Of a stretch of DNA of 64,000 nucleotides, positions 1,405-48,703 are shown in pieces. A program made the translations under genes and the position numbers. Origin of the DNA: Blastococcus aggregatus (GTDB taxonomy: Bacteria > Actinomycetota > Actinomycetes > Mycobacteriales > Geodermatophilaceae); NCBI RefSeq assembly GCF_900221005.1, contig NZ_OBQI01000007.1, positions 124,001-188,000 on the forward strand, in the 5' to 3' direction. A model generated the notes under the pieces. That model was not told the origin of the DNA, ran no database searches, and saw only the letters and a list, made by a program, of their open reading frames with translations. Positions within the stretch are counted from its first letter, which is position 1, and each line of letters opens with the position of its first letter.

Positions 1405-1449
1405 CCCGGGGCTTTCATGCCGCAGTCGCTTGACGCGTAGTTGATCAAG

Positions 1450-2265
1450 CGGAAAGTGCTCCTGACCAGCGAGAATGGGACTTGTCTAGGGTCCGTTCTA
1501 CGCAGCTCGAGGAGCACCTTCCAGGTGAAGAAACCTACCCTGTACTACCCGCGCCCGGCCATCGACGGGACCGGCTCGGCGGTCGTGGCTCACGCCGGCT
1601 CGATGCTGCTGCTGCGCACCGCGCAGACCGTCGGTCTGACCCGGGCGCTGCGGGAGGCCATGGCAGGGTGGCGCAAGCCGCTGGCCGTCCACGACCCCGG
1701 CAAGATCTTGCTGGATCTCGCGGTCAGCCTGGCGATCGGCGGTGACTGTCTGGCCGACATCGCCCAGCTGCGCGCGGCTCCGGAGGTGTTCGGGCTGGTG
1801 GCGTCGGATCCGACAGTGTCCCGCTGCATCGACGCCTTGGCCGCCGATGCCCCCGCGGCACTGACGGCGATCAACACCGCCCGGGCGACGGCCCGGGCCA
1901 ACGCCTGGTCGCTGGCCGGTGAGCACGCGCCCGATCACGACGCCGAGGCCAATCGACCGGTGGTCATCGACGTGGACGCCACGCTGATCACCTCGCACTC
2001 GGACAAGGAGGCCGCGGCGCCGACGTTCAAGCGCGGGTACGGCCACCACCCGCTGTGGGCGTTCGTCGACCACGGCGCCGCCGGGACCGGGGAACCCCTG
2101 TCGTTCCTGCTGCGCAAGGGCAACGCCGGCTCGAACACCGCCGCTGACCACCTCACCGTGATCAAGGCCGCATTGGCACAGCTGCCCGGCGGACATACCC
2201 GCGGCAAGAAGGTCTTGATCCGTATCGACGGCGCCGGGAGCACCCACGAACTACTCGCCGGCCGG
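1450..2265 (+). mobile_element. truncated IS1380-family insertion sequence
   Basis: The left part of an IS1380-like element is present and its right part is missing. Just upstream of the transposase start lies an imperfect inverted repeat: GGAAAGTGCTCCTG near 1450-1463 and GAGGAGCACCTTCC near 1509-1522. It could be the terminal repeat region or a hairpin regulating transposase translation. The element stops abruptly around 2255-2270, where coding sequence of an unrelated thioesterase begins, so the right inverted repeat is lost. No target-site duplication can be assigned. The boundaries are estimates. Confidence 0.65.
1525..2262 (+). pseudogene. IS1380-family transposase, 3'-truncated
   Basis: From a GTG at 1525 (a GAGGAG ribosome-binding site lies about 10 bases upstream) the frame gives an IS1380-type transposase N-terminal half: VKKPTLYYPRP, a conserved WRKPLAVHDPGKI block, then the catalytic-core strand VVIDVDATLI and the later strand VLIRIDGAG that normally carry the first two acidic residues of the DDE site. 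Full-length family members run about 450 residues; here homology ends near residue 246, before the last catalytic acid and the C-terminal domain. After that the frame only reads a neighbour's gene out of frame (to a stop at 2665-2667). It should be inactive. Confidence 0.85.
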
Positions 2266-2667
2266 CGGCCCGATGTCCTGGGAGATCCGGCGGATCACCG
2301 GCTGGAGCGACGACGGTCCGGGCAAGGTGTGGATGCGGGAGACGGCCGAGTTCGTGGCCGGGCAGCCGCTCACGCCGATGCTCCGCGCCGCCTTGATGGC
2401 CGACTTCACCAACCCGCTGGCGAACTCCGGCTCCGTGGGCCTGGCGTTCATCAACGTCGACGTGACGATGTACCTGGTGCGCGACCCGCGGGGGGGAGTG
2501 GATCGGCATGGAGAGCGCCGGCCACCTCGGTGCCGACGGCATCGGCTTCGGCACCACGTGGATGTACGACCAGGGACGGCCGGATCGGGCACTGCGTGGC
2601 CGCCGCACTGCCCGACCCGAGGATCCAGCGCCGCCACGCCGGGCCTGCGACCGGCGACCGCGGCTGA
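2262..2667 (+). pseudogene. acyl-CoA thioesterase-like gene, 5'-truncated and frameshifted
   Basis: Three consecutive frames together read as the C-terminal half of a thioesterase-superfamily (hot-dog fold) protein. Frame 2 covers 2262-2490 (WEIRRITGWSDDGPGKVW and onward to LVRDPRG). Frame 3 covers about 2497-2570 (WIGMESAGHLGADGIGFGTT). Frame 1 covers about 2573-2667 (DGRIGHCVAAALPDPR). The first switch lies in a run of seven G at 2490-2496 where six would keep the frame, the second at a GGG near 2572-2574. The N-terminal half has been replaced by the IS1380 remnant. It is a relic, although the two single-base insertions in G runs could also be sequencing errors. Confidence 0.75.
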
Positions 2668-2764: not shown

Positions 2765-5700
2765 GTGGGTGCGGACGTGGATCTGAGCAAGACCTTCCTC
2801 TCGTGGCCGGTGCTGCGGCAGTTCAGCGGCAACGATCCGCTGGGCCGCGGCACCGCGGCCCGATCCGGCCAGACCGAGCGGATCACCGCCCGCACGGAGA
2901 CCGCCGACCGCGTCGCCAGGAGCGTCTGCCCGTACTGCGCCGTGGGCTGCGGTCAACGGGTCTACGTCAAGGATGAGAAGGTCGTCCAGATCGAGGGCGA
3001 TCCGGACAGCCCGATCTCCCGCGGCCGACTCTGCCCGAAGGGGGCCGCCAGCAAGAACCTGGTGACCGGCCCGATGCGCGAGTCGAAGGTGCGCTACCGC
3101 CGGCCGTTCGGCACCGAGTGGGAGGACCTGGACCTCGAGACGGCGATGAACATGGTCGCCGACCGCGTCCTGAAGGTGCGCGACGAGACGTGGCAGGACG
3201 AGGACGAGTCCGGCAACAAGGTCCGCCGCACGATGGGTATTGCCGGTCTGGGCGGCGCGACGCTCGACAACGAGGAGAACTACCTCATCAAGAAGCTCTG
3301 GACGGCGATGGGCGCCGTGCAGATCGAGAACCAGGCGCGTATATAGCACTCCGCCACCGTCCCCGGTCTGGGGGCCAGTTTCGGTCGCGGCGGCGCCACC
3401 AGCTTCCAGCAGGATCTGGCCAACGCCGACTGCATCATCATCCAGGGCTCGAACATGGCCGAGGCGCATCCGGTCGGGTTCCAGTGGGTGATGGAGGCCA
3501 AGCTCCGCGGCGCCAAGATCATCCACGTCGACCCGCGGTTCACCCGCACCAGCGCGCTGGCCCACACGTTCGTGCCGCTGCGTGCCGGCACTGACATCGC
3601 CTTCCTCGGCGGAATCATCAACTACGTTCTGCAGAACGAGCTGGACTTCCGCGAGTACGTCGTGGCCTACACCAACGCTGCCTCGATCGTCAGCGACGAG
3701 TACACCGACCCCGACGAGCTCGACGGCCTCTTCTCCGGCTTCGACCCCGAGACCCGCACCTACTCACCGGAGAGCTGGCAGTACGCCCAGCAAGAGCATG
3801 AGGGCGACACCCGGCAGGACATGCACGAGCAACGGGAAACGTCGAGCGCGCAGCAGTTCGGCAGTCACGGTGCCAGCGTCTCCAGCGCCTTGCGGGACGA
3901 CACGCTGCAGGACCCCAACTGCGTCTACCAGATCCTCAAGCGGCACTTCTCCCGCTACACCCCGGAGATGGTCGAGCAGGTCTGCGGCGTCTCCCCCGAG
4001 GCGTTCCGCGAGGTCTGCGAGGCGTGGACGCAGAACTCCGGCCGGGAGCGGACGACCGCGCTGTGCTACAGCGTGGGCTGGACGCAGCACAGCGTCGGGG
4101 CGCAGTACATCCGCACGGCGGCGATCCTGCAGCTGCTGCTGGGCAACATCGGCCGCACCGGCGGCGGGATCATGGCTCTGCGCGGGCACGCCAGCATCCA
4201 GGGGTCGACCGACATCCCGACGCTGTTCGACCTGCTGCCCGGCTACCTGCCGATGCCGAGCGCCTCGAAGCACCCGGACTTCCAGACCTATGTGGACAGC
4301 ATCCGCAAGCCCGGGGCGAAGGGGTTCTGGGACAACTCCAAGGCCTACACCGTGAACCTGCTCAAGGCCTACTGGGGCGAGAAGGCGACGGCGGAGAACG
4401 ACTTCTGCTTCGACTACATGCCCAAGCTGACCGGCGACCACGGCACCTACCGCACCGTGCTGGACATGATCGACGGCAAGGTCAAGGGCTACTTCCTCTT
4501 CGGTCAGAACCCGGCGGTCGGCTCCGCGCACGGCCGGGCGCAGCGGCTCGGCATGGCCAACCTCGACTGGCTGGTCGTGCGCGACCTGGTCGAGATCGAG
4601 AGCGCGTCGTTCTGGCGGAACTCGCCGGAGATCGCGACCGGCGAAATCGTGCCGGAGGAGTGCCGCACCGAGGTGTTCCTGTTCCCCGCGGCGTCCCACG
4701 TCGAGAAGGAGGGCACCTTCACCCAGACGCAGCGGATGCTGCAGTGGCGCGAGAAGGCGCTGGACCCCAAGGGCGACTGCCGTTCCGAGCTGTGGTTCCT
4801 CTACCACCTGGGCCGGCTGCTCCGGGAGCGGCTGGCGGGCTCCGCCCGTGAGCGCGACCGGCCGCTGCTCGACCTCGTCTGGGACTACGTCCCTCCGGAG
4901 CACCAGCACGAGCCGTGGGGCGAGCCGAGCGCCGAGAAGGTGCTCATGGAGATCAACGGCTACGAGATCGCCACCGGCCGGCCGCTGTCCTCGTTCACCG
5001 AGATGAAGGAGGACGGCTCGACGCTGGGCGGCTGCTGGATCTACACCGGCGTCTTCAAGGACGGCGTGAACCAGGCGGCGCGCCGCAAGCCCGCATCGGA
5101 GCAGTCCTGGGTCGCCCCCGAGTGGGGCTGGGCCTGGCCGGCCAACCGGCGGACCCTCTACAACCGGGCCTCGGCCGACCCCGACGGCAAGCCGTGGAGC
5201 GAGCGCAAGGCCTACGTGTGGTGGGACGAGGCGGCCGGGGAGTGGACCGGGCACGACGTCCCGGACTTCGAGAAGACCAAGCCGCCGTCCTACCGTGCGC
5301 CCGACGGCGCGCGCGGCGTGGCGGCCCTGGCGGGCGACGACGCGTTCATCATGAACGGCGACGGCAAGGGCGCCCTGTACGTGCCGCAGGGGCTCATCGA
5401 CGGCCCGCTGCCCACGCACTACGAGCCGGTGGAGTCCCCGTTCCGCAACGCGCTGTACGCCCAGCAGGGCAACCCGACGCGCAAGGACTACCCGCGGCCG
5501 GACAACCCGATCAACCCGAGCTTCCCGGACGAGGCCGAGCAGGTCGCGGTGTTCCCCTACGTGTTCACCACCAGCCGGCTCACCGAGCACCACACCTCGG
5601 GGGCGATGAGCAGGTACCTGGAGTACCTCTCCGAACTGCAACCGGAGATGTTCGTGGAGGTGTCCCCGGCGCTGGCGCAAGAGCGCGGGCTCGAGCACAT

Positions 5701-6091
5701 GGGCTGGTGCCACGTGATCACCAGCCGGTCGGCGGTGGAGGGACGGGTGCTGGTCACCGAGCGGCTCATCCCGCTCCGTGTCGAAGGTCGGGTGGTGCAC
5801 CAGGTGTGGCTGCCCTACCACTGGGGGGCCGGCGGCATGGTCACCGGCGACTCGGCCAACGACCTGTTCGGCATCACGCTCGATCCCAACGTGCTGATCC
5901 AGGAGAGCAAGGTCGGCACCTGTGACGTCCGGCCCGGGCGGCGCCCGACCGGGCCGGCGCTCCGGGAGTACATCGCGGGTTACCTGCAGCGGGCGGGCCT
6001 CGACACCGGCCGGCGCACGCCGATCCTGACCACCGGCACCGCCGGATCTCACACCGACGGTCGCGAGGCCGACGAGGGGGCGCAGCCATGA
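2765..6091 (+). CDS. fdhA: formate dehydrogenase alpha subunit, selenoprotein with UAG-encoded Sec194
   Basis: This is the molybdopterin catalytic subunit that oxidises formate to CO2. Residues 54-61 (CPYCAVGC) and a later CPKG form the N-terminal [4Fe-4S] site. The gene is interrupted by one in-frame TAG at 3344-3346 (codon 194). The same frame continues immediately as HSATVPGLGASFGRGGATS, matching FDH-N/FDH-H, where the motif is ARI-Sec-H. Read through, the product has 1108 residues, normal for the actinobacterial enzyme. Without read-through it would be a useless 193-residue stub. No twin-arginine signal is visible, so it is probably cytoplasmic. It overlaps fdhB by ATGA. The start is GTG 2765; GTG 2774 is also possible. 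The TAG is interpreted as selenocysteine, as established for Geodermatophilus and Blastococcus FDH. Confidence 0.92.
3344..3390 (+). promoter_or_regulatory. UAG selenocysteine codon and bacterial SECIS-like hairpin
   Basis: Directly after the TAG (3344-3346) the mRNA can fold a 6-bp stem: GUCCCC at 3359-3364 pairs with GGGGGC at 3370-3375 (one U-G pair), closed by the loop GGUCU at 3365-3369. GGUCU is the apical loop bound by SelB in the E. coli fdhF SECIS, and the 18 bases between codon and loop equal the E. coli spacing as I recall it. This supports active recoding, not a nonsense mutation. No tRNA-Sec, selA or selB gene is visible in the window. Confidence 0.85.
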
Positions 6092-7026
6092 TCGGCAAGA
6101 CCAGTCTCTTCGGTCCGGTGAACCCGGCACGCGATGCCGGCTACGACGACCCTCCGGCTCGCAAGGGGTTCTTCACCGACACCAGCATCTGCATCGGGTG
6201 CAAGGCGTGCGAGGTGGCCTGCAAGGAGTGGAACGAGGTCCCCGACAACGGCTTCGACATGCTCGGGATGTCCTACGACAACACCGGCTCGCTGAACGCC
6301 AACAGCTGGCGGCACGTCGCGTTCGTCGAGCAGCCGGCTCGCCCGACCGCCCCGCCGGTCGATCTCGGCATGCCGACGCTGCTGCACGACGGGGTGGCCG
6401 ATGACGGGCAGCAGACGACGGTGGCCGGCGAGGACAGGCCAGATTTCCGTTGGCTGATGTCGTCGGACGTGTGCAAGCACTGCACGCATGCCGCCTGCCT
6501 GGACGTCTGCCCCACCGGCTCGCTGTTCCGGACCGAGTTCGGCACGGTCGTGGTCCAGGACGACATCTGCAACGGCTGCGGCTACTGCGTGCCGGCCTGC
6601 CCGTACGGGGTCATCGAACGGCGAGAGCGCCCTGAGGCGGCCAAGAACGTCGGTATCGCGCAGAAGTGCACGCTCTGCTACGACCGGTTGGGCGCCGGCA
6701 TGACCCCTGCCTGCGCCCAGGCCTGCCCCACCCAGTCGATCCAGTTCGGTGACGTCGACGAGCTGCGGGAGCGGGCGAAGCAGCGGGTCGAGGCGCTGCA
6801 GGCCGGCGGGGTGACCGATGCCCGGCTCTACGGGGCCGACCCCGAGGACGGCGTGGGCGGCGCGGGAGCGTTCTTCCTGCTCCTCGACGAACCCGAGGTC
6901 TACGGCCTGCCCCCCGACCCGGTGGTCACCACCCGCGACCTCCCGCACATGTACCAGCGGGCCGTCGTCGCCGCCGGTGCGCTGCTGCTGGGCGCTGTCC
7001 TCTCCTTCCTGGAGAGGCGCTCATGA
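6088..7026 (+). CDS. fdhB: formate dehydrogenase beta subunit, 4Fe-4S ferredoxin type
   Basis: This 312-residue electron-transfer subunit carries four ferredoxin-type cysteine clusters: CIGCKACEVAC near residues 35-45, CKHCTHAACLDVC near 130-142, CNGCGYCVPACP near 162-173, and CTLCYDR with CAQACP near 195-215. These are the four [4Fe-4S] sites of FdnH/FdoH-like subunits, which pass electrons from the alpha subunit toward the membrane. The last 20 residues form a single hydrophobic helix (AVVAAGALLLGAVLSFL) that could anchor the dimer. Its ATG overlaps the alpha stop (ATGA) and its stop overlaps the next start in the same way, so the three subunits are translationally coupled. Confidence 0.95.
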   Translation: MIGKTSLFGPVNPARDAGYDDPPARKGFFTDTSICIGCKACEVACKEWNEVPDNGFDMLGMSYDNTGSLNANSWRHVAFVEQPARPTAPPVDLGMPTLLHDGVADDGQQTTVAGEDRPDFRWLMSSDVCKHCTHAACLDVCPTGSLFRTEFGTVVVQDDICNGCGYCVPACPYGVIERRERPEAAKNVGIAQKCTLCYDRLGAGMTPACAQACPTQSIQFGDVDELRERAKQRVEALQAGGVTDARLYGADPEDGVGGAGAFFLLLDEPEVYGLPPDPVVTTRDLPHMYQRAVVAAGALLLGAVLSFLERRS

Positions 7027-8075
7027 GCTCGGCACCAGACGGTGAAGGTCCGCGGCAGCAGACGGTGGTGCTCGGTTCCCAGGACGGGCGGCGCGGGAAG
7101 CGGCGGCGTGGGGGCGGAGGGGACCAGTCCATGGTTCCGGAGGCCACTTTCACGTCGTACTCCGGACTGCCCGTCGTCAAGGCATCCCCGTGGAAGGCCG
7201 ACATCCCCGCGTACATGTTCTTCGGCGGGATGGCGGCGGGATCATCCCTGCTCGCCGCCGGCGGCGACCTGACCGGCCGGCCCGCGTTGCGACGTGCCGG
7301 CCGGTTCACCGCCCTCATCGGACTGTCCGCCACCATGGCCACGCTCGTCCACGACCTCGGACGTCCGGGGCGATTCCTCAACATGCTGCGCACCGCCAAG
7401 CTGACCTCGCCGATGTCCGTGGGCACCTGGATCCTGTCGACGTACGGTCCGATCGCCGGAGTCGCCGCGGCGGCCGAGCTCGTCGACATGCTCCCCGAGC
7501 GGCGCGTTCCGGCGCTGTTCCGCCTGGTCTCCGCCGTGGGGCGGCCCGCCGGGTTCGTGGCCGCGCTGACGGCGCCACCGGTCGCCGCGTACACCGCCGT
7601 CCTGCTCTCGGACACGGCCACCCCATCCTGGCACGAGGCCTACCGGGAGCTGCCGTTCGTCTTCGTCGGCTCGGCCGCGGCCGCGGCCGGCGGCGTCGGC
7701 ATGCTCGCCGTCCCTCCGGACCAGGCCGGCCCCGCACGGCGGATGGCCGTCGGGGGCGCCGTGCTGGAGCTTGTGGCCGAGCAGCGGATGGAGTCCTCCA
7801 TGGGGATCACCGCCGAGCCCCTGCACCAGGGGAAGGCGGGGCGGTGGATGAGAGCGAGCAAAGCCCTCACCATCACCGGCGCGCTGGGCTCTCTCCTCGG
7901 CGGGCGCAGCAGGCCGGTGGCCGCCGTGTCGGGCGCCGCGCTGGTGGCGGGTTCGGTGTGCACGCGGTTCGGGATCTTCGAGGCCGGTCAGCAGTCGGCC
8001 CGCGACCCCAAGTACACCGTGGTGCCGCAGCGTGAGCGCCTCGATCGGGGGGAACCGACCCGCTACCGGGGCTGA
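7023..8075 (+). CDS. NrfD/PsrC-family membrane subunit of formate dehydrogenase
   Basis: A 350-residue polytopic membrane protein. After a charged, glycine/arginine-rich N-terminal extension, conserved NrfD features begin near residue 47 (SGLPVVKASPWKADIPAYMF, then FGGMAAGSSLLA) followed by several hydrophobic helices. NrfD-type subunits transfer electrons between an Fe-S partner and the quinone pool without heme, so this gene replaces the cytochrome b gamma subunit of E. coli FDH-N. ATG 7023 overlaps the fdhB stop; ATG 7131 would remove the disordered extension and is an alternative start. The three-gene order alpha, beta, NrfD is typical of actinobacterial formate dehydrogenases. Confidence 0.88.
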   Translation: MSSAPDGEGPRQQTVVLGSQDGRRGKRRRGGGGDQSMVPEATFTSYSGLPVVKASPWKADIPAYMFFGGMAAGSSLLAAGGDLTGRPALRRAGRFTALIGLSATMATLVHDLGRPGRFLNMLRTAKLTSPMSVGTWILSTYGPIAGVAAAAELVDMLPERRVPALFRLVSAVGRPAGFVAALTAPPVAAYTAVLLSDTATPSWHEAYRELPFVFVGSAAAAAGGVGMLAVPPDQAGPARRMAVGGAVLELVAEQRMESSMGITAEPLHQGKAGRWMRASKALTITGALGSLLGGRSRPVAAVSGAALVAGSVCTRFGIFEAGQQSARDPKYTVVPQRERLDRGEPTRYRG

Positions 8076-8191
8076 TCAGCACGGGGCGCCCGCCCGGCGC
8101 CCGCACGGAGCATCGAAGTCACGGAGCGTCGAGGTGAAGAGGACGGACATGGCGCAGGGACAGAGCACGGCACCCGACACCAGCACCGGAA

Positions 8192-9433
8192 GTGGCGCCC
8201 CCGGAAGGGAACAGGTGGTTCCTCGTCGCCGCCGCGCTCCTCCTGCAGTTCTCGATCGGTGCCGTGTACGCGTGGAGCGTGTTCGGCTCGGCGTTGCGGG
8301 ACGCCTCGGCGTTCGACCTCAGTCGGGTGGAGGCGTCGCTGCCCTTCACCGTCACTATCGGGATGATCTTCATCGGCAGCTACATCGGGGGCCGGATCCA
8401 GGACGTCCGGGGGCCGCGGATCGTCGCGCTCATCGGTGGTGTCATCTATGCCGTCGGCGTCGTGCTCGCCTCGTTCGCCACCAGCGGCGACCAACTGTGG
8501 CTGATCATCCTCGGGTACGGCGTGATCAGCGGGTTCGGCCTGGGCTTCGCCTACATCGTCCCGATCGCCATGTTGCTCAAGTGGTTCCCGGACAAGCGGG
8601 GCCTGATCACCGGCCTGGCCGTGGGCGGCTTCGGCTTCGGTGCGGTGCTCACCTCACCGGTCGCCCAGTGGCTGATCGAGGGTGATCCCGAGCAGCCGAC
8701 CAGCGCCTTCCTCCCGCTCGGCATCGCCTACCTGGTGATGTCCCTGATCGGGGCCTCGTTCTTCCGCAACCCGCCGGCCGGATACACCGTGCCCGGCTAC
8801 GAGCCGGCGACGAGCGGGGTCGAGGCCAGGGTGGAGAAGGACTACACCCAGGGTGAGGCGCTGCGGACCCCGCAGTGGTACCTGCTCACCGCCATCCTCA
8901 CGCTCAACGTGACCGCGGGGATCGCACTGATCGCCCAGGCCGCCGCCAGCGCCGAGGACATCGCCGGGTACACGGCGACCGGTGCGGCCGCCGTCGTGGG
9001 CGTGCTCGCGGTGTTCAACGGCGGCGGCCGGGTCGTCTGGGCGGCGGCGTCGGACTACATCGGGCGGATGCCCGCCTTCGCGGCGATGCTCGGGCTCCAG
9101 GGCGTGTGTCTGCTGCTGCCGCACGCCTCGAACGCGGCGCTGTTCTTCATCCTCGCCGCCGTCATCTACCTCTGCTACGGCGGTGGGTTCGGCACCATGC
9201 CGGCCACGGCCGGCGACTACTTCGGGGTCAAGTACGCCGGCGCCATCTACGGCCTGATGCTGGTCGGCTGGAGCATCGGCGGCATCCTCGGCCCGATCCT
9301 CATCTCCGCCCTCATCGGCGGCGACCGCAACTACACCCTGGGCTACACGACCATCGGGATCATCGCGCTGGTGTCCATGATTCTGACGTTCATCACCAAG
9401 CTGCCCCGCGCGCGTCGCAGCGTCGAGGCTTAG
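8192..9433 (+). CDS. OFA-family (oxalate/formate antiporter type) MFS transporter
   Basis: This 413-residue protein has 12 predicted transmembrane helices and the OFA subfamily signature near the start (NRWFLVAAALLLQFSIGAVYAWSVF). Known OFA members exchange oxalate, formate, lactate or similar small carboxylates. Its position 116 bases after the formate dehydrogenase operon suggests it supplies formate or a precursor, but the substrate is inferred from context only. The GTG at 8192 has only a weak ribosome-binding site. An ATG at 8149 opens a plausible 17-residue N-terminal extension (MAQGQSTAPDTSTGSGA) in a different frame, joining near the C run around 8198-8202. A one-base error there, or a misplaced start, is possible. 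Confidence 0.85.
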   Translation: MAPPEGNRWFLVAAALLLQFSIGAVYAWSVFGSALRDASAFDLSRVEASLPFTVTIGMIFIGSYIGGRIQDVRGPRIVALIGGVIYAVGVVLASFATSGDQLWLIILGYGVISGFGLGFAYIVPIAMLLKWFPDKRGLITGLAVGGFGFGAVLTSPVAQWLIEGDPEQPTSAFLPLGIAYLVMSLIGASFFRNPPAGYTVPGYEPATSGVEARVEKDYTQGEALRTPQWYLLTAILTLNVTAGIALIAQAAASAEDIAGYTATGAAAVVGVLAVFNGGGRVVWAAASDYIGRMPAFAAMLGLQGVCLLLPHASNAALFFILAAVIYLCYGGGFGTMPATAGDYFGVKYAGAIYGLMLVGWSIGGILGPILISALIGGDRNYTLGYTTIGIIALVSMILTFITKLPRARRSVEA

Positions 9434-11703: not shown

Positions 11704-12444
11704 CTACTCGGCGGCCGACTTCATGCTGAGCGCGGCCGCCTCTTCATCGGCGAGCTCTCCGACGAGCTCGGCGACCTTTACGGCGATGTCCTCCAAGGAC
11801 TCCTCCGCCGTGTTGAACCCACCACGTGACGCGAGCATGGGGCTGACCTGGTCGAGTTCCTCGAACGTCACACCGTGCATGACCGGCACCAGCAGGTTGC
11901 GGCGCAGTAGAGCGCTGAGCTCACTGTTGGCGACGCTTCGATCGGAGCGCAGCTTTACGAGCATGGCGGGCGTCACTAGGACGATTCCCATGCGCGAACT
12001 CACGAGCCCCTTTTCGATGGCCACTCGCATGTCCGTGCCGGGCCGAAGGCTCACTTCGCTGAACCACACCGAGAGCTTGCGTCCGACGAGCAAGTCGTAG
12101 GCATCTTTCGCGTCGGCCTTACGGTCGTCCCAGGCGTGGCAGAGGAACACGTCCTGCTCCTGGGTTCGGGCCACGACCGAAGCGCGGACGGGCTCTAGGT
12201 CGCGCACCTGCTGCGGCGTGTACGAGACAGTCGACGTGCTCGGCTGCCAGGCCGGCTGGACGGTGCGACCTTCCCCGCTGCCGCTCGACAGGCTCCCGCT
12301 CCTACGGAGAGGGGCGGCCGGTGCTGGGTAAGACGGGTATGACCGCGGCGGCGCGTAGCCATACCCTCCGCCGCGTCCGTGAACTGGGCAGTCGGCGCCG
12401 CCGCCCCTGATGTGGCCCCGCACGGGCGCAGTGCACTGAGACAT
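11704..12444 (-). CDS. TIR-domain protein with N-terminal Cys/His motif
   Basis: From ATG 12444 the 246-residue protein begins MSQCTAPVRGHIRGGGADCPVHG, a conserved Cys/His-containing head followed by a low-complexity Gly/Tyr/Pro/Ser linker. A TIR domain then starts near residue 98 (DVFLCHAWDDR). The Glu of WFSE near residue 130 sits where NADase TIR domains keep their catalytic Glu, and later GIVLVTPAML and ELSALL blocks complete the fold. Bacterial TIR proteins of this kind hydrolyse or convert NAD+ in antiphage responses. An in-frame upstream start at 12519 exists, but the family start fits 12444. Confidence 0.82.
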   Translation of the reverse strand: MSQCTAPVRGHIRGGGADCPVHGRGGGYGYAPPRSYPSYPAPAAPLRRSGSLSSGSGEGRTVQPAWQPSTSTVSYTPQQVRDLEPVRASVVARTQEQDVFLCHAWDDRKADAKDAYDLLVGRKLSVWFSEVSLRPGTDMRVAIEKGLVSSRMGIVLVTPAMLVKLRSDRSVANSELSALLRRNLLVPVMHGVTFEELDQVSPMLASRGGFNTAEESLEDIAVKVAELVGELADEEAAALSMKSAAE

Positions 12445-12687
12445 GAGGCGGAGGCTAGTGGCGACCTCTGACATGACAGCGAGGGTTGTTCCGATAGGGG
12501 ATCCCTCACCGAAACGCACGCTGTCCGCGGCATGAGCGGACGTCGGCTAGCCGCCCCTGTTAGCGGGGCGCGCGTCCGGTCGCGGCAGCGAGGTAGGCGC
12601 ACTGGGCGCGCGGTAGGGGGACCTCTCATCGAGGGGCGGCAAGGCTGTGCGGAAGGCGTTGGACAAGCTGCGAGCACGCCAACTGGG

Positions 12688-16473: not shown

Positions 16474-17318
16474 TGGCGCTCCGCCGAGGCGGCCGGGAGC
16501 CGCGCAGCGCGCAGTGGTCGCGACGGAAGTTGCTCGCCCTGCTAGTCATGGCAGCGTTGACGGTCGCGGTTCTGATGGCAGGCCTGGTGTTGGCCGTGGG
16601 CCACGCGGTCGCCCCGACTGGAGACGGCGACGACGCCAGCGGCTTGGTCGGGAACGAGACAGGCCCGGCGACGGAAGCTGATCCGACCGGCACGCTGCCC
16701 GCCGCCGAGGCTCGTGACGCGCTCGCCGCCAGGCGGATGCCTGAGGTGCCGACATCCGCCTCCCGTCCCGCGCCCCTCTCCAACCGTGACTCCGGCCCGC
16801 CGATCGTGCTGCCGCGGGCGACGCACACTGGCTCGGCGGGCGTGCCGACCGGCTTCCCGCACACCGCCGAAGGAGCGATGGCGCAGCTGGCAGCCATCGA
16901 CCAGGTCGCGCTGGAGTCCGGCTCGCTGGCCGGCACGCGTGACGTGATCGCCGCCTGGGCGATGCCCGGTGGCCCGACGACCACGAGCTGGTCCGGCGTC
17001 CAGGCGATGAGCACGCTCCTGAGTGCCGCGGGCCTGTCCGGTGGAGGATCGCAGCAGCTCGCCGTCGTCCTCACGCCACGTATGGGCCAATTCAAGGGCA
17101 GCGCAGGGCCCGACTTCGTCGTGCCCTGCGTGAACTTCGAGCTCGACGTGACCCTGCTGCAGACTGCCCGCGGCGCGACCGCCGACTGCCAACGGATGGT
17201 CTGGCACCGCGACCGCTGGATGATCGGACCGGGCGACGAACCCGCGCAGCCGCCATCGGTGTGGCCCGGAACAGATCTGGCGATCGACGTCGGCTACCGG
17301 GAGCTGCGCCATGGGTAG
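16473..17318 (+). CDS. membrane-anchored conjugation protein (281 aa)
   Basis: Residues 1-17 are basic, then a single transmembrane helix (LLALLVMAALTVAVLMAGLVLAV, shown here in part only by position 19-40) is followed by a Thr/Pro/Ala-rich linker and a soluble domain from about residue 125. This bitopic layout with an extracytoplasmic domain resembles VirB8/TcpC-like proteins that link the type IV channel parts, but sequence similarity is not evident to me. The two Cys residues (FVVPCVNFEL and TADCQRMVWH) could form a disulfide outside the membrane. It overlaps both neighbours by a few bases. Confidence 0.7.
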   Translation: MALRRGGREPRSAQWSRRKLLALLVMAALTVAVLMAGLVLAVGHAVAPTGDGDDASGLVGNETGPATEADPTGTLPAAEARDALAARRMPEVPTSASRPAPLSNRDSGPPIVLPRATHTGSAGVPTGFPHTAEGAMAQLAAIDQVALESGSLAGTRDVIAAWAMPGGPTTTSWSGVQAMSTLLSAAGLSGGGSQQLAVVLTPRMGQFKGSAGPDFVVPCVNFELDVTLLQTARGATADCQRMVWHRDRWMIGPGDEPAQPPSVWPGTDLAIDVGYRELRHG

Positions 17319-18795
17319 CACTCTCCTGGCCGGCGACGCGGCGGCTGTGAGCACCAGCGTGCTGGCGATCGACCTGAACCCGATCAGCTGGCTCGGGGAC
17401 GCCGCCTCCGCGGCCGTCGCTGATGTGTGGAAGGCCGCCATGATCGCCCTCTGGTCCGCCGGGCTCTGGCTGCTCACCCTCGCCTTCCAGGTCATCGACG
17501 CATTCACCACCCCAGACCTCACGGCATCGGGACCGATGGGGGCGGTGCTTCCGACGACGCTGTGGATCGGTGCGTCGGTCGCGGTGATCATGATGTTCGT
17601 CCAGCTGGCCGTGGCACTGATCCGCCGCGACGGACAGTCCCTGGGCCGGGTGCTGCTCGGGATGGCGCAGTTCGGACTGGTCTGGGTCGGCTACCTCGGA
17701 GTGGCCGGCGCCCTGGTCACCGCCGCGGCCGGGCTGTCCCGCGGAATCCTCCAGGCGATGCTGGACATCGACAGCCTGTCGGCCTTCGACCCCAGCAGCT
17801 CCTGGCCCCGCGAGGTGGTCGACGCGACGGTGGCCACCGTCCTGGGCATCTCCTCCCTGCTGCTTCTCATCCCCGCCTCGTTCTTCTACCTGGTGATCAT
17901 GTTCGTCCGGGAGGCGGCGCTGATCATCCTGGCCGCCACGGCTCCGATTTCCGCCGGCGGACTGCTCAGCGACAGCACCAAAGCGTGGTTCTGGAAGAGC
18001 CTGCGCTGGTTCATCTCCTGCCTGCTCATCGCGCCGGTGGCGTCACTCGTCCTCGGCATCGGCGTCCAGCTCTCCGCCGGGGTGGTCGCGGGGAACGGTG
18101 ACTCGACCGCCCAGGCCGCGGGAACGGCCATCGTCGGCGCGGTCATGATCGCGATCGGTGCGGTCTGCCCGCTGGTGCTGTTCCGGCTGCTGGCGTTCGT
18201 GGACCCAGGAACCGCATCCGGTGCGGCGCTGCGCCAGTCGTGGACCGACGCGGGCGGCCTGTCGGGCGTGCTCTCCGGCGGTGGCGGCGAGTCCGTGGGC
18301 AGTGGCGCCGCGGCGCGCAGCGGCGGTGACGGCCGGTCCGGTGGGGAGGCTGCAGCGGAGGCCCAGTCCTCGGGGCGGCTGGCCGCGATGTTCGGTGGGG
18401 TCGGCGCCGCGGTGGGTGCCGGCACCTCGCTGGCTCACCGTGCGGTCGCCGTCGGTGCGGACGTGCTGGGCTCGGCCGGCGTCGGCCACCCCGCCTACGG
18501 CATGCCGCCCAGCGATGCGGGTAGCAGCCGGCGAGCAGGCGGCCGGTCGTCGAGCGATACGGGCGGAGGTCCCGACGGCGGTTCCGGTGACGGTGGCTCG
18601 GCCGGTGGACCGGAAGCCGACGGTGGCGGCCCATCGACTCAGCCGCCGGGGCCACCGCCCTTCGATGGAGGACCCCCTGCCGGGACTCCCGGGACTCCCC
18701 GCGGGGGCCTGGCGGGCTGGGCACAGGAGGGGACGGCGGCCGGCGGTTCCGGCGGCGCCGCGGCCGCCCAGAAAGCTGCGACGGTGGCGCTGTGA
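17311..18795 (+). CDS. TrbL/VirB6-like polytopic conjugation protein
   Basis: The first 300 or so residues contain about six long hydrophobic helices and a conserved patch around residues 190-235 (FFYLVIMFVREAALIILAAT, then APISAGGLLSD, W-F-W-K-S-L-R-W). This is the hallmark of actinobacterial TrbL/VirB6-type membrane channel proteins. The C-terminal 170 residues are low-complexity Gly/Ser/Ala, as is common for these proteins, which often carry a disordered cytoplasmic tail. It would form the inner part of the DNA-transfer channel with the VirB4-like ATPase. ATG 17311 overlaps the upstream stop; the stop overlaps GTG 18792. Confidence 0.85.
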   Translation: MGSTLLAGDAAAVSTSVLAIDLNPISWLGDAASAAVADVWKAAMIALWSAGLWLLTLAFQVIDAFTTPDLTASGPMGAVLPTTLWIGASVAVIMMFVQLAVALIRRDGQSLGRVLLGMAQFGLVWVGYLGVAGALVTAAAGLSRGILQAMLDIDSLSAFDPSSSWPREVVDATVATVLGISSLLLLIPASFFYLVIMFVREAALIILAATAPISAGGLLSDSTKAWFWKSLRWFISCLLIAPVASLVLGIGVQLSAGVVAGNGDSTAQAAGTAIVGAVMIAIGAVCPLVLFRLLAFVDPGTASGAALRQSWTDAGGLSGVLSGGGGESVGSGAAARSGGDGRSGGEAAAEAQSSGRLAAMFGGVGAAVGAGTSLAHRAVAVGADVLGSAGVGHPAYGMPPSDAGSSRRAGGRSSSDTGGGPDGGSGDGGSAGGPEADGGGPSTQPPGPPPFDGGPPAGTPGTPRGGLAGWAQEGTAAGGSGGAAAAQKAATVAL

Positions 18796-20321
18796 CGGCC
18801 CCGGGACGGCCGGTCCGGTACGGCTCGTGGTCGAAGGACAGGCAGGGCTGGTTCCTGGGTCTCGGCGGCGGGTCGTGGGTGGTGATCGTTGTGGGCGGCC
18901 TGCCGCTGTTGCTGGCCGCGGGCTCGGCCAAGTGGTTGCTAGCGCTGGGATGGGCCCCGGTGTGGGCGGTACTGATCGTGCTGGTCGCCGTCCCGGTGCG
19001 GGGTCGCTCGGCGTTCCAGTGGGCCGTCGAGTGTCTGCGTCGCTGGTCGGGAGCCGTCCTGGGCTGGACGGACTGGCAGTCCAAGGCCGCCGCCGGAACT
19101 GCCGACGACCTCGACGAGGCCGACCTGCCCGGCGTGCTCTCGGGTATCCGAACCTACGACGGCCCGCCGTTCGGCCCGCTGCTCGTCCGCCCGGCCGTCG
19201 TGGCCGACCACCGGGAGCGCACCTGGGCCGCCGTCGCCAGGATCACCCACCCCGGGATCGGGCTGTCCGAGGCAGCCGCCCGCGCGCGATTGGGAGCGGG
19301 CCTGGCCGAGCTGCTCGAGGGCGCGGCCACGGCGGAGCTGGTGTCGGTGGTCGCCCTGCAGATCCGCACGCTGCCCGAAGACGGTGCCGAACGGGAGGCG
19401 TGGCAGCGCACCCATCTGCGCCGGAGCGCTCCGGGGCTGGCGCTGGCGGCAAACGCCGAACTCGCCGCGGTGATGACGTCCGCCGGAGTGCGCCACGAGG
19501 CATTCGTGACCGTCGTCGTCCCGGAGCGGCGGATCGCCCGCGCGGCCAAGGAAGCCGGCGGCGGCGTCGACGGCCGCGCGCGCGTCCTGTACGGGGTGAT
19601 GGGCGAGATCGAGGCCCGGCTGGCCGGTGCCGTCGGCTGCACGAGCGTCACCTGGCTGGACTCTCCCGGCCTGGCCGCCGCCATCCGCACCGGCTTCGCG
19701 CCCGGTGACCGGGCCGGTCTCGCGGCGGCCGAGTTCGCCGCGAGCTCCGATCCGCAGGTCGCCGCGGCTCTGCCGATGGGCGCAGCCGGGCCAACCGTCG
19801 CGCCGAATCCCGAGCGTCGCCACTACGCCCACGACGCATGGCACTCGGCCACCTGCACCGTCTTGCTGCCCGACAAGGGCGCCGTCATGGGTGCCCTGGC
19901 ACCGGTGCTGACCCCGACGACGGCGGGGGAGCGGCGGTGCGCCACGGTGTTCTTCGAGCCGATCAGCACGGCGAAGGCCGACCGCCTCGTGGGCAACGAG
20001 TCGATGAGCTCGGAGCTGGCGACCGAGATCCGACGCCGCGGCGGGTTCCAGGTCCGCGCGTCCCACCGCCGCGACGCCGCCCGCGTCGAGGGCCAGGACG
20101 TCCGGCTCGCCGAGGGAAACGCGCTCGTCCGCGTCGGCATCGCCGCATCAGTGACGGTGCCCGGGACGTGGTCGATCACCGACTACGGCCGCCGGCTGGA
20201 GGCGAGCATCACCGGAAGCGGATTCAAGCCGCTGCGGCTGGACTTGGCTCAGGACTCTGGCTTCGCCGCGGCCTGCATCCCGCTCGGCATCGGCCTGCCT
20301 CGACGTCGGGGCACGAAGTGA
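18792..20321 (+). CDS. SCO6880-family conjugation protein
   Basis: A 509-residue protein with two N-terminal transmembrane helices (about 28-48 and 52-70) followed by a large soluble domain. It matches the SCO6880 family, which in actinobacteria sits directly before the VirB4-like ATPase and probably corresponds to the PrgI-like membrane part plus the N-terminal domain of TraC/VirB4, split off as a separate protein. Conserved stretches include RPVRYGSWSKDRQGWFLGL at the start and FFEPISTAKADRLVGNESM near residue 380. GTG 18792 overlaps the previous stop. Confidence 0.85.
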   Translation: MTAPGRPVRYGSWSKDRQGWFLGLGGGSWVVIVVGGLPLLLAAGSAKWLLALGWAPVWAVLIVLVAVPVRGRSAFQWAVECLRRWSGAVLGWTDWQSKAAAGTADDLDEADLPGVLSGIRTYDGPPFGPLLVRPAVVADHRERTWAAVARITHPGIGLSEAAARARLGAGLAELLEGAATAELVSVVALQIRTLPEDGAEREAWQRTHLRRSAPGLALAANAELAAVMTSAGVRHEAFVTVVVPERRIARAAKEAGGGVDGRARVLYGVMGEIEARLAGAVGCTSVTWLDSPGLAAAIRTGFAPGDRAGLAAAEFAASSDPQVAAALPMGAAGPTVAPNPERRHYAHDAWHSATCTVLLPDKGAVMGALAPVLTPTTAGERRCATVFFEPISTAKADRLVGNESMSSELATEIRRRGGFQVRASHRRDAARVEGQDVRLAEGNALVRVGIAASVTVPGTWSITDYGRRLEASITGSGFKPLRLDLAQDSGFAAACIPLGIGLPRRRGTK

Positions 20322-21877
20322 TCGGCCGACGCGCCGCTCGCGTGCGGGGGAGGGGAGTGGCGAAGCTCGTCTCGGACTTCGGCCACCAACTGCCGCCGCT
20401 CGCCCCACGTCCGGCTCGGTCGGACGACCGCGACCCTCTCTCCTTCCTGGTCGGCCAGCACGGACGGACCGGTCGGGCCACGGGCTGGTGCCCGGTGCCC
20501 GCGCCGCTGGCGGTCTACCGGATGACGTCGGAGCAGGCCGGCGGGGTGTGGCCGCTGATCGCCGGCAACGGACTGCCTCCCACGGGCGCGCTGCTGGGCA
20601 TCGACTACCTCTCCGGCGGCGCCTTCTCCGTCGATCCGATCGGCTGGACGCTGCAGGCGGTCGCCGGCGTCACCAACCCGAACATGATCTTCTTCGGAGC
20701 ACCCGGCCGCGGGAAGTCCGGCACCGTCAAGATGTTCGCCCTGCGGCAGATGGCCTACGGCTACCGCACGCTGGTCCTCGGCGACGTCAAGGACGAGTAC
20801 GAGCCGCTCTGCCGGGCGCTGGAGGTGCAGCCCCACGCGGTGGGCCACGGCCTGCCCGCGCGGATCAATCCGCTGGACTTCGGTCCGCTGGGCAACGACT
20901 GGACCCGGCTGCCGCGCGCGGAGGCGCAACGCCGCGCGGCGATGGTGTTCTCCCGCTGGCTGTTGCTTCTCCGCGGTCTGGTCGGGTCCCAGCACGTGCC
21001 GTTCGGGCCGACGGCCGAGACCGCCGTCGGCCAGGTGATTCGGGACCTGACCGGCTACACCACCGGCGCCGACCGGATGCGCGAGATCACCATCCCGCGG
21101 GTGTGGGAGGCACTACGCGCCCCCAGTGCCGAGCTGGTCGACGCCTGCCGCTACGCGACGAGCCAACAGTTTCTGGACGACACCCGACCGGTGCGCGACG
21201 CTCTCGGCGCGCTGGTCACCGGGCACCTGGCGGGCCTGTTCGACGCACCGACCACGATCTCGGTGGACTGGCGCGCCCCCATCCAGTCGCTGTCGCTGTC
21301 CCGGCTGGACCCGCTCGGCGACGAGGCCGTCGGCGTGGCCCTGACCTGCCTGAACTCCTGGGGCCGGGCGATGACCCAGCTCGCCGAACCTGGCGACCTG
21401 CGGATCGTCATCCGCGACGAGTGCTGGAAGCAGATGCGCCTCGGCGCCGACGCCGTCCGGTCACTGGATGCGGACCTGCGCTTGTCCCGCAACGACGGCT
21501 GCATCCAGGTCGTCGTCGCGCACAAGCCGTCGGACATGCTCACCGTCGGCGATGCCGGCAGCCAGGCCGTGGCGATCGCCAAGGACCTCCTGCACCTGTG
21601 CGCCACCAAGGTGTTGCTGGGCCAGGACGACCAGATCGGCGACGAGCTCTCCGGCCTGCTCGGACTCAGCCCCATGGCCGAGCGCATCGTCACCGACTGG
21701 GCCGCCGCCGCCCGGGGGAGGGCGCTGTGGCTGGTCGGCAGCCACGTCGCGAAGGTGCAGACGGTTCGCACCTCGATCGACGTGGCCCTGACCGACACCA
21801 ACGACGCCATCACGACCTCCACGTCCGGCGACGCGGAGGCAGCTTCGGTGGCCGCCCGCCGGGCGGGGGTGGCGTAG
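20318..21877 (+). CDS. VirB4/TraC-like conjugation ATPase
   Basis: From GTG 20318 (overlapping the previous TGA) the protein has 519 residues. A Walker A motif GAPGRGKSG lies at about residues 127-135, a Walker B strand LRIVIRDECWK near 365-375, and a following VAHKPSDM block is typical of HerA/VirB4 ATPases. The enzyme would energise assembly of the mating channel or substrate transfer. The open frame runs further upstream to 19838, but that part lies inside the SCO6880 gene and is not protein-like. Only the ATPase half of a classical VirB4 is present, in agreement with a separate SCO6880 partner. Confidence 0.88.
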   Translation: MIGRRAARVRGRGVAKLVSDFGHQLPPLAPRPARSDDRDPLSFLVGQHGRTGRATGWCPVPAPLAVYRMTSEQAGGVWPLIAGNGLPPTGALLGIDYLSGGAFSVDPIGWTLQAVAGVTNPNMIFFGAPGRGKSGTVKMFALRQMAYGYRTLVLGDVKDEYEPLCRALEVQPHAVGHGLPARINPLDFGPLGNDWTRLPRAEAQRRAAMVFSRWLLLLRGLVGSQHVPFGPTAETAVGQVIRDLTGYTTGADRMREITIPRVWEALRAPSAELVDACRYATSQQFLDDTRPVRDALGALVTGHLAGLFDAPTTISVDWRAPIQSLSLSRLDPLGDEAVGVALTCLNSWGRAMTQLAEPGDLRIVIRDECWKQMRLGADAVRSLDADLRLSRNDGCIQVVVAHKPSDMLTVGDAGSQAVAIAKDLLHLCATKVLLGQDDQIGDELSGLLGLSPMAERIVTDWAAAARGRALWLVGSHVAKVQTVRTSIDVALTDTNDAITTSTSGDAEAASVAARRAGVA

Positions 21878-21880
21878 CCC

Positions 21881-23026
21881 ATGGCAGGAACGGACGCCGG
21901 CCGGACGGCGCTGGCGGCGGGTGTCGCAGTCTTCGTCCTGCCCCTGCTGGCCATGTCCACCGTGCTGCTCCTCCTCGGCGGGGCAGCGTCGAGCGAGACC
22001 CACCCCGACACCACATGTGGGGCCGGTGGCACCGGGGCCACAGTCGCCGGCATCGCGCTGGACGCCGTCCAGATGGGTCACGCGCGGACCATCGCCGACG
22101 TCGCCGCCGCGCGCGGCCTGCCCGCGCATGCCGCGACGGTGGCGTTGGCCACCGCCTGGCAGGAGTCGCGGCTGCGCATGCTGGCCAACGACGGCAGCAG
22201 CCTCGAGCTCACCGCAGAGCAGGCCGCGGTGACCGCCACCAGCCTGAGCTACGCGCACGACGGGCTCGGGTTCGACCACGACAGCGTCAACACCTTCCAG
22301 CAGCGCTGGATGGCCGGCTGGGGCACCGTCGCCCAGCTGATGGACCCCGTCTACGCGGCCGAAGCGTTCTACACCCGGCTCGTCGACGTACCCGACTGGG
22401 AAACCATTCCGCTGACCCAGGCTGCGCAGGCGGTGCAGATCTCGGCCGCCGGCGGCGCCTACGCCCGCTGGGAGCCGCTCGCCCAGCAACTCACGGCGAT
22501 GCTGTGGCCGGCTTCCCAGGCGGTGGATGCGGACACGGCCGGTGCGGTGGACGGCGGCTGCCCCGGCCTGTCGGTGCCCGACGGCGCGTGGGCCCGCCCC
22601 AGCGCCGGCGTCCTCACCTCCGGCTTCGGGCCGCGATGGGGCAGCCAGCACGCCGGCGTCGACCTGGCCGGCCCGCGCGGCAGCCCGGTGTACGCCGCCG
22701 CGGCCGGCACCGTGCTCACCGCCGCGTGCACCAGCGCCTTCTGCGACCGCGACGGCGGCCTCGATCTGGCCGGCTACGGCAACCTCGTCGAACTCAACCA
22801 CGGCGACGGAGTAACCACCCGCTACGCCCACCTCTCGGGCTACACCGTCACTCCCGGGCAGCAGGTGCCGGCCGGTGCGCTGCTCGGCTTCCAGGGCTCC
22901 ACCGGCAACAGCACCGGCGTCCACCTGCACTTCGAGGTCCGCCTCGACGGCGCACCCGTCGACCCGGTGCCCTGGCTCGCTGAACGCGGTGTCGACCTGT
23001 CCGTCCACGCGGGGGCCGGCGCGTGA
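21881..23026 (+). CDS. secreted M23-family peptidase with lytic transglycosylase-like domain
   Basis: A hydrophobic signal-anchor (residues 10-33) precedes two domains. Residues about 50-195 look like a helical lysozyme/transglycosylase-type domain (TAWQESRLRMLAND with a candidate catalytic Glu). Residues about 230-365 form an M23 peptidase with the zinc motifs HAGVDLAGP and HLHFEVR and the GFGPRWG entry. Such bifunctional wall hydrolases open the peptidoglycan for the conjugation channel. It begins three bases after the VirB4-like stop and its stop overlaps the next start (GTGA). Confidence 0.88.
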   Translation: MAGTDAGRTALAAGVAVFVLPLLAMSTVLLLLGGAASSETHPDTTCGAGGTGATVAGIALDAVQMGHARTIADVAAARGLPAHAATVALATAWQESRLRMLANDGSSLELTAEQAAVTATSLSYAHDGLGFDHDSVNTFQQRWMAGWGTVAQLMDPVYAAEAFYTRLVDVPDWETIPLTQAAQAVQISAAGGAYARWEPLAQQLTAMLWPASQAVDADTAGAVDGGCPGLSVPDGAWARPSAGVLTSGFGPRWGSQHAGVDLAGPRGSPVYAAAAGTVLTAACTSAFCDRDGGLDLAGYGNLVELNHGDGVTTRYAHLSGYTVTPGQQVPAGALLGFQGSTGNSTGVHLHFEVRLDGAPVDPVPWLAERGVDLSVHAGAGA

Positions 23027-23649
23027 CCACACCGCCCCGGCGTCGCGATCCCCAGCCGATCGGTCGCGGATGGGAGCTGGCCGTCGTGGCAGCCGGCGGC
23101 ACCTTGATCGCCATCGCGCTGGCCGCCCTGACCGGACTCGGGGTCGCCTCGGCGCTGTGGGGCGGCGGCTGGGTGTGGCCGCACAGCACCGACACGGTCG
23201 TGCGAGTCCTGGGCGGACTTCTGCACGGCCAGCCCGGTCGCGGTCTGCCGCCTGACCAGCTGCGCCAGGTCGCCGGGCAGGTCCCGGCGTACGCCTGTAT
23301 CGCCGCAGCCGAGCTCGTTCTGCTGAGCGGGGCGCTCACGACCACCGTCCTGGCTGTTCGCTACCGGCGTCCCGGCGACGCCCGCGGCGGCATGGCCACC
23401 CGCCGGGAGGCCGAGCAAGCACTGGGGCTGCGCCAGCTCCGCGCCGGGCGAGCAGTCATCCGCCCGGACCGCTACCCGTCTCGAGGCGGCCGAGGCCGCC
23501 TCCGCCGACTGCTGTCCACAGGCGCCGCTGCAGTTCGCCGTCGTGCCCACAGATCCGGCGCGAGCCCCGACTCGGGGCCGACCGCGCCACGACCGTCGAC
23601 GTCGACATCTCGTCCAACCGTTCGTTCCGAGAAGGAGTCATATCGATGA
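23023..23649 (+). CDS. N-terminal membrane part of a split VirD4-like coupling protein
   Basis: A 208-residue protein with two transmembrane helices (about residues 22-48 and 88-113). Between them lies an extracytoplasmic segment containing GGGWVWPHS, and after the second helix comes GGMATRREAEQALGLRQLR, then RAVIRPD. That last block is normally found just after the membrane helices of VirD4/TraG-like coupling proteins, right before the ATPase domain. Here the ATPase is encoded separately at 25248, with two genes between. The C-terminal tail is basic and Ser/Thr-rich. I infer that the two proteins act together at the membrane. Confidence 0.7.
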   Translation: MTTPPRRRDPQPIGRGWELAVVAAGGTLIAIALAALTGLGVASALWGGGWVWPHSTDTVVRVLGGLLHGQPGRGLPPDQLRQVAGQVPAYACIAAAELVLLSGALTTTVLAVRYRRPGDARGGMATRREAEQALGLRQLRAGRAVIRPDRYPSRGGRGRLRRLLSTGAAAVRRRAHRSGASPDSGPTAPRPSTSTSRPTVRSEKESYR

Positions 23650-23951
23650 GCTCGACCGACAACGGCCACAGGCCGGACCTGCTGACCGCCCGGGCCGAGG
23701 CAGCGGCGCTGTTCGCCGCCGCCGCCCGCAACGAGAAGGCCGGGCCGACAGCCCAGCTGCACTGCCTCACCGCGGCCACCACTCTGGCGCCCCCCGGTCC
23801 GGTGCCCGCGACGGCCGACAGCACCGACCCCGACCGGCTCATCGAGCAGGCGCTGCGCGTCCTCGGCAACCTGCCCGCGCACGACTTCGCGCACCCCGAC
23901 GTCCTCGCCGCCGCCCAGCACGGGCACCGCGCGCTCCGGGCACCGCGCTGA
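23646..23951 (+). CDS. small conserved-context protein of conjugation operon (101 aa)
   Basis: A short, helical, alanine-rich protein beginning MSSTDNGHRPDLLTARAEAAA with no transmembrane segment or motif I can name. The ATGA overlap with the preceding gene and the TGATG overlap with the next show that it belongs to the operon. The arrangement, between the two halves of a coupling protein, suggests a structural or accessory role, but nothing in the sequence proves one. Confidence 0.65.
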   Translation: MSSTDNGHRPDLLTARAEAAALFAAAARNEKAGPTAQLHCLTAATTLAPPGPVPATADSTDPDRLIEQALRVLGNLPAHDFAHPDVLAAAQHGHRALRAPR

Positions 23952-25243: not shown

Positions 25244-25247
25244 CGCG

Positions 25248-45879: not shown

Positions 45880-46036
45880 TTGCCACCTCGCTTGAAAAGA
45901 GCGTCGTGCAACTCGCTCCTTTTCAGGCGGTGTCAACCGTCCGGCGGCGTGCAGAACCGCGACTGGGCGGAATTGTCAGAGGTACGTGCCATGGTCAACG
46001 GAGTCGCCGACATCGGCGCCGAACGAGAGGAAAACC

Positions 46037-46186
46037 ATGCCTGGACAGCCGCGCAAGCCCGACCACCCGGAGCACCCGGAGCACCCGGAGCACCCGGAGC
46101 ACCCGCACACCCCGAAGCCGCCGCCGGGCCCCCCGCCGGGCCCGCCGAACCCGCCGCGTCCGCCGAAGGACCGGCCGGTCGGTTGA
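46037..46186 (+). CDS. 49-aa proline-rich protein with HPE repeats and C-terminal Gly
   Basis: ATG 46037 is preceded by GAGAGG. The product is proline-rich (about 45% Pro): PGQPRKPDHP, then a perfect His-Pro-Glu repeat, then PPPGPPPGPP and a final KDRPVG. It must be disordered. The TGA (46184-46186) overlaps a TTG start of the E2-E1 gene (TTGA at 46183-46186), so the two are translationally coupled. A small protein with C-terminal Gly encoded next to an E1 enzyme suggests it might be the protein that is activated and conjugated, in the manner of a tag, but this is inference. The HPE part is encoded by four identical 9-base units. Confidence 0.7.
   Translation: MPGQPRKPDHPEHPEHPEHPEHPHTPKPPPGPPPGPPNPPRPPKDRPVG
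46070..46105 (+). repeat. tandem 9-bp repeat GAGCACCCG x4
   Basis: Four perfect copies (46070-46078, 46079-46087, 46088-46096, 46097-46105), with a diverged copy GACCACCCG just before. Each unit encodes Glu-His-Pro, so copy-number change by slippage would lengthen or shorten the proline-rich protein without breaking its frame. Confidence 0.95.
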
Positions 46187-48518: not shown

Positions 48519-48703
48519 GCGGGCGATGGGCTCGGCAGACCTGGCGCTGGAGAAGAGTGCCAAGGCGTCAGATCGGCGTCGATTGTGTGAGCCCGTCCGA
48601 CGGGAGCCACCCTCGCCGGACGTCCCGTTAGTCGATCTCTCGCCCTGCGATGGGCCGACTTGTCTGGGCGGCGCAACCCTGCCCTGAGGTCCAGTCGGGC
48701 AAG

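Follow-up and report, generated by a model that had tools for sequence, protein, structure and literature searches.

A Predicted UAG-Encoded Selenocysteine in a Foreign Formate Dehydrogenase of Blastococcus aggregatus, Likely Acquired from a UGA-Using Actinobacterium

Introduction

In 2016, Mukai and coworkers reportedly described selenocysteine (Sec) encoded by UAG in Geodermatophilus and Blastococcus. The existence of UAG-encoded selenocysteine in these two genera, with a CUA tRNA-Sec, is in any case already in print in the passages of PMC5330540 considered here, and the precedent on which the preliminary description of the present locus had relied is thus a real one. Since the phenomenon has been published for the Geodermatophilaceae, the decoding mechanism itself is known. 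The passage of a gene from one selenocysteine codon to the other, from TGA to TAG, takes two base changes, and the single-step intermediates are TAA and TGG, both of which should be dead in a host whose tRNA-Sec has the anticodon CUA. The transfer of genes between UGA and UAG hosts is not described in the parts considered of PMC5330540, PMC13188914, PMC5756416, PMC7609411, and PMC8124441, nor did a search of PMC5009743 turn up a passage on it. Here, we analyze a 64-kb stretch of the Blastococcus aggregatus genome (the window) that contains a formate dehydrogenase (FDH) gene with an in-frame TAG, and compare this gene with its relatives both within the family and beyond it.

Results

The gene for the FDH alpha subunit, fdhA, extends from position 2765 to 6091 on the forward strand of the window. 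It has a GTG start, and its frame is open except for a single stop, the TAG at 3344-3346 on the same strand (codon 194), which stands in the context ARI-stop-HSATV and is the predicted selenocysteine codon; at the local composition, some 915 stop-free codons have a probability of 9e-9. The NCBIfam profile of the actinobacterial FDH (formate_DH_Act, NF041513) gives 1920 bits (cut-off 1400) for a match that spans the stop (residues 10-1074), and the FDH-N alpha profile TIGR01553 scores 914 bits, above its curated cut-off of 814. Standard ORF calling gives two pieces, 2765-3346 and 3455-6091. When codon 194 is aligned with its counterparts in 129 FDH loci (L067-L195, among which L067 is the window gene and a few others repeat a single record), TAG is found in 39 and TGA in 90, with no other codon, and the window's TAG faces the TGA Sec codon of its relatives.

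The TAG is followed by a SECIS-like hairpin (3359-3375, forward strand) with a stem of 3359-3364 and 3370-3375 and a GGTCT loop (3365-3369) that starts 18 bases past the stop. The stem pair that was tested for covariation is formed by the third bases of the Val and second Gly codons, which are free to vary synonymously; standard pairing is kept at every one of the 129 FDH loci, in the types C-G, T-A, T-G, G-T, and G-C. All 91 unique contexts pair, versus a shuffle mean of 49.3, and none of 10000 shuffles, which ignore relatedness, reaches 91. The Gly codon of the loop is GGT in 121 of the 129 loci and AGT (Ser) in 8, unlike the commonest Gly codon in these FDH genes, which is GGC. By its folding energy alone, the hairpin is not distinctive (z -0.55), and an Rfam search of the 64-kb window gave nothing at the gathering score. 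The preliminary description had claimed an alpha frame intact save for one TAG at the exact Sec position, a hairpin with the SelB-type loop GGUCU 18 bases after it, and a gene that automated annotation would split in two; the letters, the profile match, the stem covariation, and the ORF calling bear out all of these points.

The window belongs to a genome (G000) of 4.62 Mb in 13 contigs that is 99.87% complete. The preliminary description had proposed a search for a selC with a CUA anticodon together with selA and selB, and a single tRNA-Sec was found (C11:57046-57137) that has the anticodon CTA, matches Rfam RF01852 over its full length with 64.2 bits and, by eye, has G73 and an encoded CCA. 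It is directly followed by selA and then selB, while selD lies ~1.8 kb upstream on the opposite strand; the profile scores of the three (TIGR00474, 421 bits; TIGR00475, 280; TIGR00476, 384) are all above the curated cut-offs. The finding that the preliminary description had named as a refutation, a genome lacking any CUA tRNA-Sec, thus did not arise, and its reading of the TAG is supported. In the RF01852 search, for which 150 of the 962 first-look candidates were scored, there was no UCA tRNA-Sec in this genome, the seven other matches (E<=0.001) being Ser, Arg, Tyr, Leu, and Met tRNAs; 48 ordinary tRNAs are listed. Two more genes of G000 have a TAG at their Sec sites, a second FDH (C4:969539-972781) and a UGSC gene (C6:393157-393657). 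A search of the genome for an AhpC-type selenoprotein of its own yielded 8 matches, none of them with an inner stop. As a separate observation, six genomes of the window's genus contain a second group of UGSC paralogues (L293-L298), in which the TAG-GSC is kept and CTSCSVHD has become CSSWSLHD.

A tRNA-Sec was detected at E<=1e-10 in 108 of 112 Geodermatophilaceae genomes and its anticodon was read in all 108: it is CTA in 101 and only TCA in 7, all of the latter in the genera coded g6, g9, and g11. By eye, the CTA form differs from the TCA form of these three genera both in the anticodon loop (CUUCAAA to CUCUAAA) and in its closing pair (U-A to C-G). In the 15 genomes from other families of the order, the anticodon is TCA without exception. 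A pattern search gave 118 TAG-FDH sites from 98 of the 112 family genomes. The host lineage probably changed its tRNA-Sec from UCA to CUA before the arrival of the window's FDH.

One of the 101 CTA genomes, that of Geodermatophilus sp. LHW52908 (G093, whose FDH locus matches a record of this strain without a difference over 6288 bases), also holds a TCA copy. An AhpD/CMD-like ORF that contains a TGA in frame (NRCFY-U-MESH) lies ~300 bases away from this second tRNA-Sec (81.8 bits, on G093:C17; L197, features at 1169-1263 and 1579-2157), and the pair sits among insertion-sequence genes. The GC content is 70% at this locus, lower than in the 20 kb of contig that come next (76%) and than at the CTA selC locus (77%); both selA and selB are present at the latter, and neither was found in the first 40 of the 69 kb of G093:C17. 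For a gene further along this contig, the genus holds a 75% homologue, which speaks against contamination. In the family, the AhpD-like protein occurs in one copy with TGA, and otherwise there are only 30-40% relatives without an inner stop; the search made of viral contigs gave no relatives, and all 327 plasmid records are below 60% identity. Judged by these sequences, Geodermatophilus sp. LHW52908 would have two codons for selenocysteine.

The window's FDH is not the family's own enzyme but a foreign one, a point that the preliminary description had overlooked. Across the 111 other family genomes, its full-length identity does not exceed 69% (70-77% is reached by pieces of split family FDHs confined to the conserved first third), and the usual family type is represented in G000 by the second FDH on C4, which is 90% identical to L092. 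Distant relatives were ranked by similarity to the window FDH in a scan of named genomes, and among the best 80 of at least 593 those with 75-80% identity are genes of Nocardioides, Cellulomonas, Georgenia, Mumia, and MAGs, all with TGA; the closest is L113, on a MAG contig, with 80%, and the sole TAG gene in these 80 is from a Geodermatophilus. The window's fdhA is followed on the same strand by the genes for the FDH beta (iron-sulfur) subunit (6088-7026; TIGR01582, 167 bits, below the cut-off of 335), an NrfD-type membrane subunit (7023-8075), and an MFS transporter (8192-9433; NCBIfam L-lactate MFS transporter), the last gene in common with L113. This fdhA-fdhB-nrfD-MFS block is matched in order by L113 with 80, 78, 78, and 84% identity, and the same order of the four genes is also found in L097, L101, and L104. 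From these comparisons, it is likely that the window's FDH was acquired from a UGA-using actinobacterium.

To the left of the block lies a transposase-derived ORF (1441-2667, forward strand; a partial match to DDE_Tnp_1_4), and to its right, at 10.5-13.9 kb, are NYN, TIR, and nuclease-like genes. Conjugation genes follow at 17311-26765 on the forward strand (TrbL/VirB6-like, M23 peptidase, and TraG/TraD coupling protein), with a TrwC-type relaxase/helicase at 36265-41838 on the reverse strand. A search for the borders of a conjugative element gave one tRNA-Asn at ~C11:101626 and no direct repeat of at least 20 bases between C11:100000-140000 and C11:140000-240000. It is likely that mobile DNA brought in the block (2765-9433) as a unit. 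The window also contains defence-like genes (11704-12519, 45880-48518, and 48650-53487): a gene for a TIR protein close to ThsB, an E2/E1 (ThiF) gene with a JAB gene after it, and two overlapping frames for a type ISP/IIG restriction enzyme.

The phylogenetic trees (LG+G4 without mixture) were drawn from 130 rows, the 129 loci and the second FDH of G000. The first tree has 107 rows, after 23 of the 31 Micromonosporaceae rows (L115-L145) had been dropped, and the careful tree has 56 of the 130, picked by hand. Both require four codon changes, which are forced by supported branches. TAG is found in the main clade of the family, in the window gene grouped with L113 (support 100/98), in L182 and L184 grouped with three Pseudonocardia (100/99), and in L179 grouped with L076 and L084 (100/99). 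A single TAG group is present in 0% of 200 bootstrap trees, and the AU test rejects a union of the main TAG clade with the window (p 0.0013), with L182/L184 (p 1.5e-42), or with L179 (p 3.7e-5), groups named after the tree had been seen, as well as a union of all TAG rows (p 5e-45), a set not so chosen. The genomes of L184 (G068) and L179 (G132) have a CTA tRNA-Sec; none was found in that of L182 (G126), which is 72% complete. Since TAG occupies four separate places on the tree, parsimony asks for three acquisitions and rewritings, and three foreign FDH lineages, the window's included, have thus probably crossed from UGA to UAG users and been rewritten from TGA to TAG. The weakest of the three cases is L179, because the sister of its group is the main TAG clade and L076 and L084 could instead have changed back, at the price of more steps. 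As the first tree holds 40 TAG-FDHs versus the 118 pattern-matched sites of the family, more cases may exist.

Two further features of FDH genes in the family may be recorded. The FDH matches of G001, G028, G029, G117, G118, G129, and G133 are each broken in two around residue 345 by an extra stretch within one open frame, that is, an insertion. One TGA besides TAG is listed in the FDH genes of G132:C98, G064:C39, G087:C18, G096:C1, and G127:C356; in two of these five, L179 and L181, the Sec codon itself is TAG.

Directly before the window's TAG stands the rare Ile codon ATA (3341-3343, forward strand), and the same codon precedes TAG in 118 of the 118 family sites, found with a pattern that allowed ATN. 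The codon before TGA in the 90 TGA loci is ATT in 83, ATA in 6, and ATC in 1, and elsewhere in these FDH genes ~98% of the Ile codons are ATC. A tree-based test of the association of ATA with TAG has 4 independent pairs; on average, 3.5 of them have ATA moving in the same direction and none in the opposite one (p 0.125-0.25); with only four such pairs, the association cannot reach significance on the tree. We considered, and rejected, a general requirement for A ahead of UAG-Sec: 22 UGSC contexts (21 TAG and 1 TGA) have GAT or GAC at -1, and the ATA rule is specific to FDH.

We compared the three acquired genes site by site with resident and donor-type genes, taking as resident the genome's own second FDH for the window and, as stand-ins from the same genus, L180 for L184 and L185 for L179. 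In L184 and L179, the stretch bounded by the nearest donor-type bases has resident-type bases at CGC-ATA-TAG. In the window, the resident-type bases are those of ATA-TAG, and if L113 is taken as the donor only the two changed bases of TAG remain, since L113 already has ATA. Resident-type bases are also scattered further out in the acquired genes. A single event of gene conversion, with the resident FDH as the source of a very short tract, would account for the hexamer; in the other FDH of G068, ATATAG is preceded by CGG instead of CGC, a misfit to a conversion tract longer than the hexamer there. The alternative to gene conversion is point mutation plus selection on the context, and the data do not decide between the two.

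Discussion

From the TAG, the covariation of the hairpin, the CUA tRNA-Sec with selA, selB, and selD, and the foreign placement of the gene, we infer with considerable confidence that the TAG at 3344-3346 is read as selenocysteine by the one tRNA-Sec found in the genome, with its CUA anticodon, in an FDH that likely came from a UGA-using actinobacterium and was later changed from TGA to TAG. In this scheme, SelD and SelA would make Sec-tRNA(CUA), and the hairpin at 3359-3375 would guide SelB in delivering it to the ribosome, in competition with release factor 1; these steps, established by others for the Geodermatophilaceae, are extended here to the window. As the host's tRNA-Sec was probably already CUA, an incoming TGA copy would have been left undecoded until it was rewritten to TAG. 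The closest gene is only 80% identical and the donor is unsampled, so the rewriting could predate the arrival and have occurred in another UAG-using host.

An improbable alternative is that the window's FDH is an ancient Geodermatophilaceae paralogue, older than the switch from UCA to CUA, which was converted alongside the rest of the selenoprotein genes and has since disappeared from almost all relatives. The branch from the L113 split to the window is 0.20, comparable to branches inside the family's main TAG clade, and thus age alone does not exclude such a history. However, this type of FDH is present in 1 of the 112 family genomes, its sister on the tree is a TGA gene, within a clade of the Nocardioides/Cellulomonas type, and it lies near a transposase remnant and conjugation genes. 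Still less credible is the reading of fdhA as a pseudogene, in which the TAG merely ends translation and the downstream half decays. The stop does split the standard ORF, but the pairwise dN/dS between the window and L113, averaged over both lineages, is 0.226 before the TAG and 0.228 over the 909 codons after it, there is no further stop, TAG stands at the Sec position of 118 pattern-matched sites in 98 family genomes, and a CUA tRNA-Sec is present in the same genome; this reading is rejected. That the CUA tRNA is a pyrrolysine tRNA, and UAG pyrrolysine, can be dismissed with near certainty, since the tRNA-Pyl label given by ARAGORN was apparently taken from the anticodon, whereas the tRNA matches the Rfam tRNA-Sec over its full length, adjoins selA-selB, and is accompanied in G000 by a sole PylS_Cterm match of 23.9 bits (cut-off 178).

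A more speculative extension of the favored reading, borrowing followed by recoding, is that a difference in Sec codon is no barrier to the transfer of selenoproteins, the codon being overwritten after entry. Three UGA-Sec FDHs might then have been domesticated in UAG-Sec hosts by micro gene conversion, with the resident ATATAG copied over the incoming ATTTGA (or ATATGA) and the dead TAA and TGG avoided, while Geodermatophilus sp. LHW52908 might have taken another route, keeping a UCA tRNA-Sec beside a UGA selenoprotein gene and using two Sec codons at once. We regard this as possible but doubtful.

As far as our searches of open-licence PMC papers show, what is new here is that the window's FDH was borrowed and recoded, that there were probably three such events, and that the ATA context is fixed; in these searches, we found no prior description of a gene crossing between organisms with different Sec codons. 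The four placements of TAG on the tree of one enzyme provide a natural series for how a two-base switch gets past intermediates that do not function, and the invariant ATA ahead of UAG offers a context requirement that can be tested. For annotation, the consequence is that such selenoprotein genes get split by standard ORF calling.

Among known systems, the pyrrolysine decoding of UAG resembles that of the window's host in that a dedicated CUA tRNA reads the codon, but the host has no PylS above the cut-off and its tRNA is of the tRNA-Sec family. The UAG-Sec system of Geodermatophilus and Blastococcus likewise has a CUA tRNA-Sec, and FDH and UGSC genes with TAG as their Sec codon; in contrast, the window's FDH is foreign and non-orthologous, with relatives that carry TGA, and the passages of PMC5330540 considered here mention neither transfer nor repeated rewriting. 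Closest to the window's enzyme (~71-80%) are the UGA-Sec FDHs of Nocardioides, Cellulomonas, Micromonospora, and other actinobacteria, which have the same hairpin and, in several cases, a common gene order; they differ from it in their TGA and in the ATT that mostly precedes the codon.
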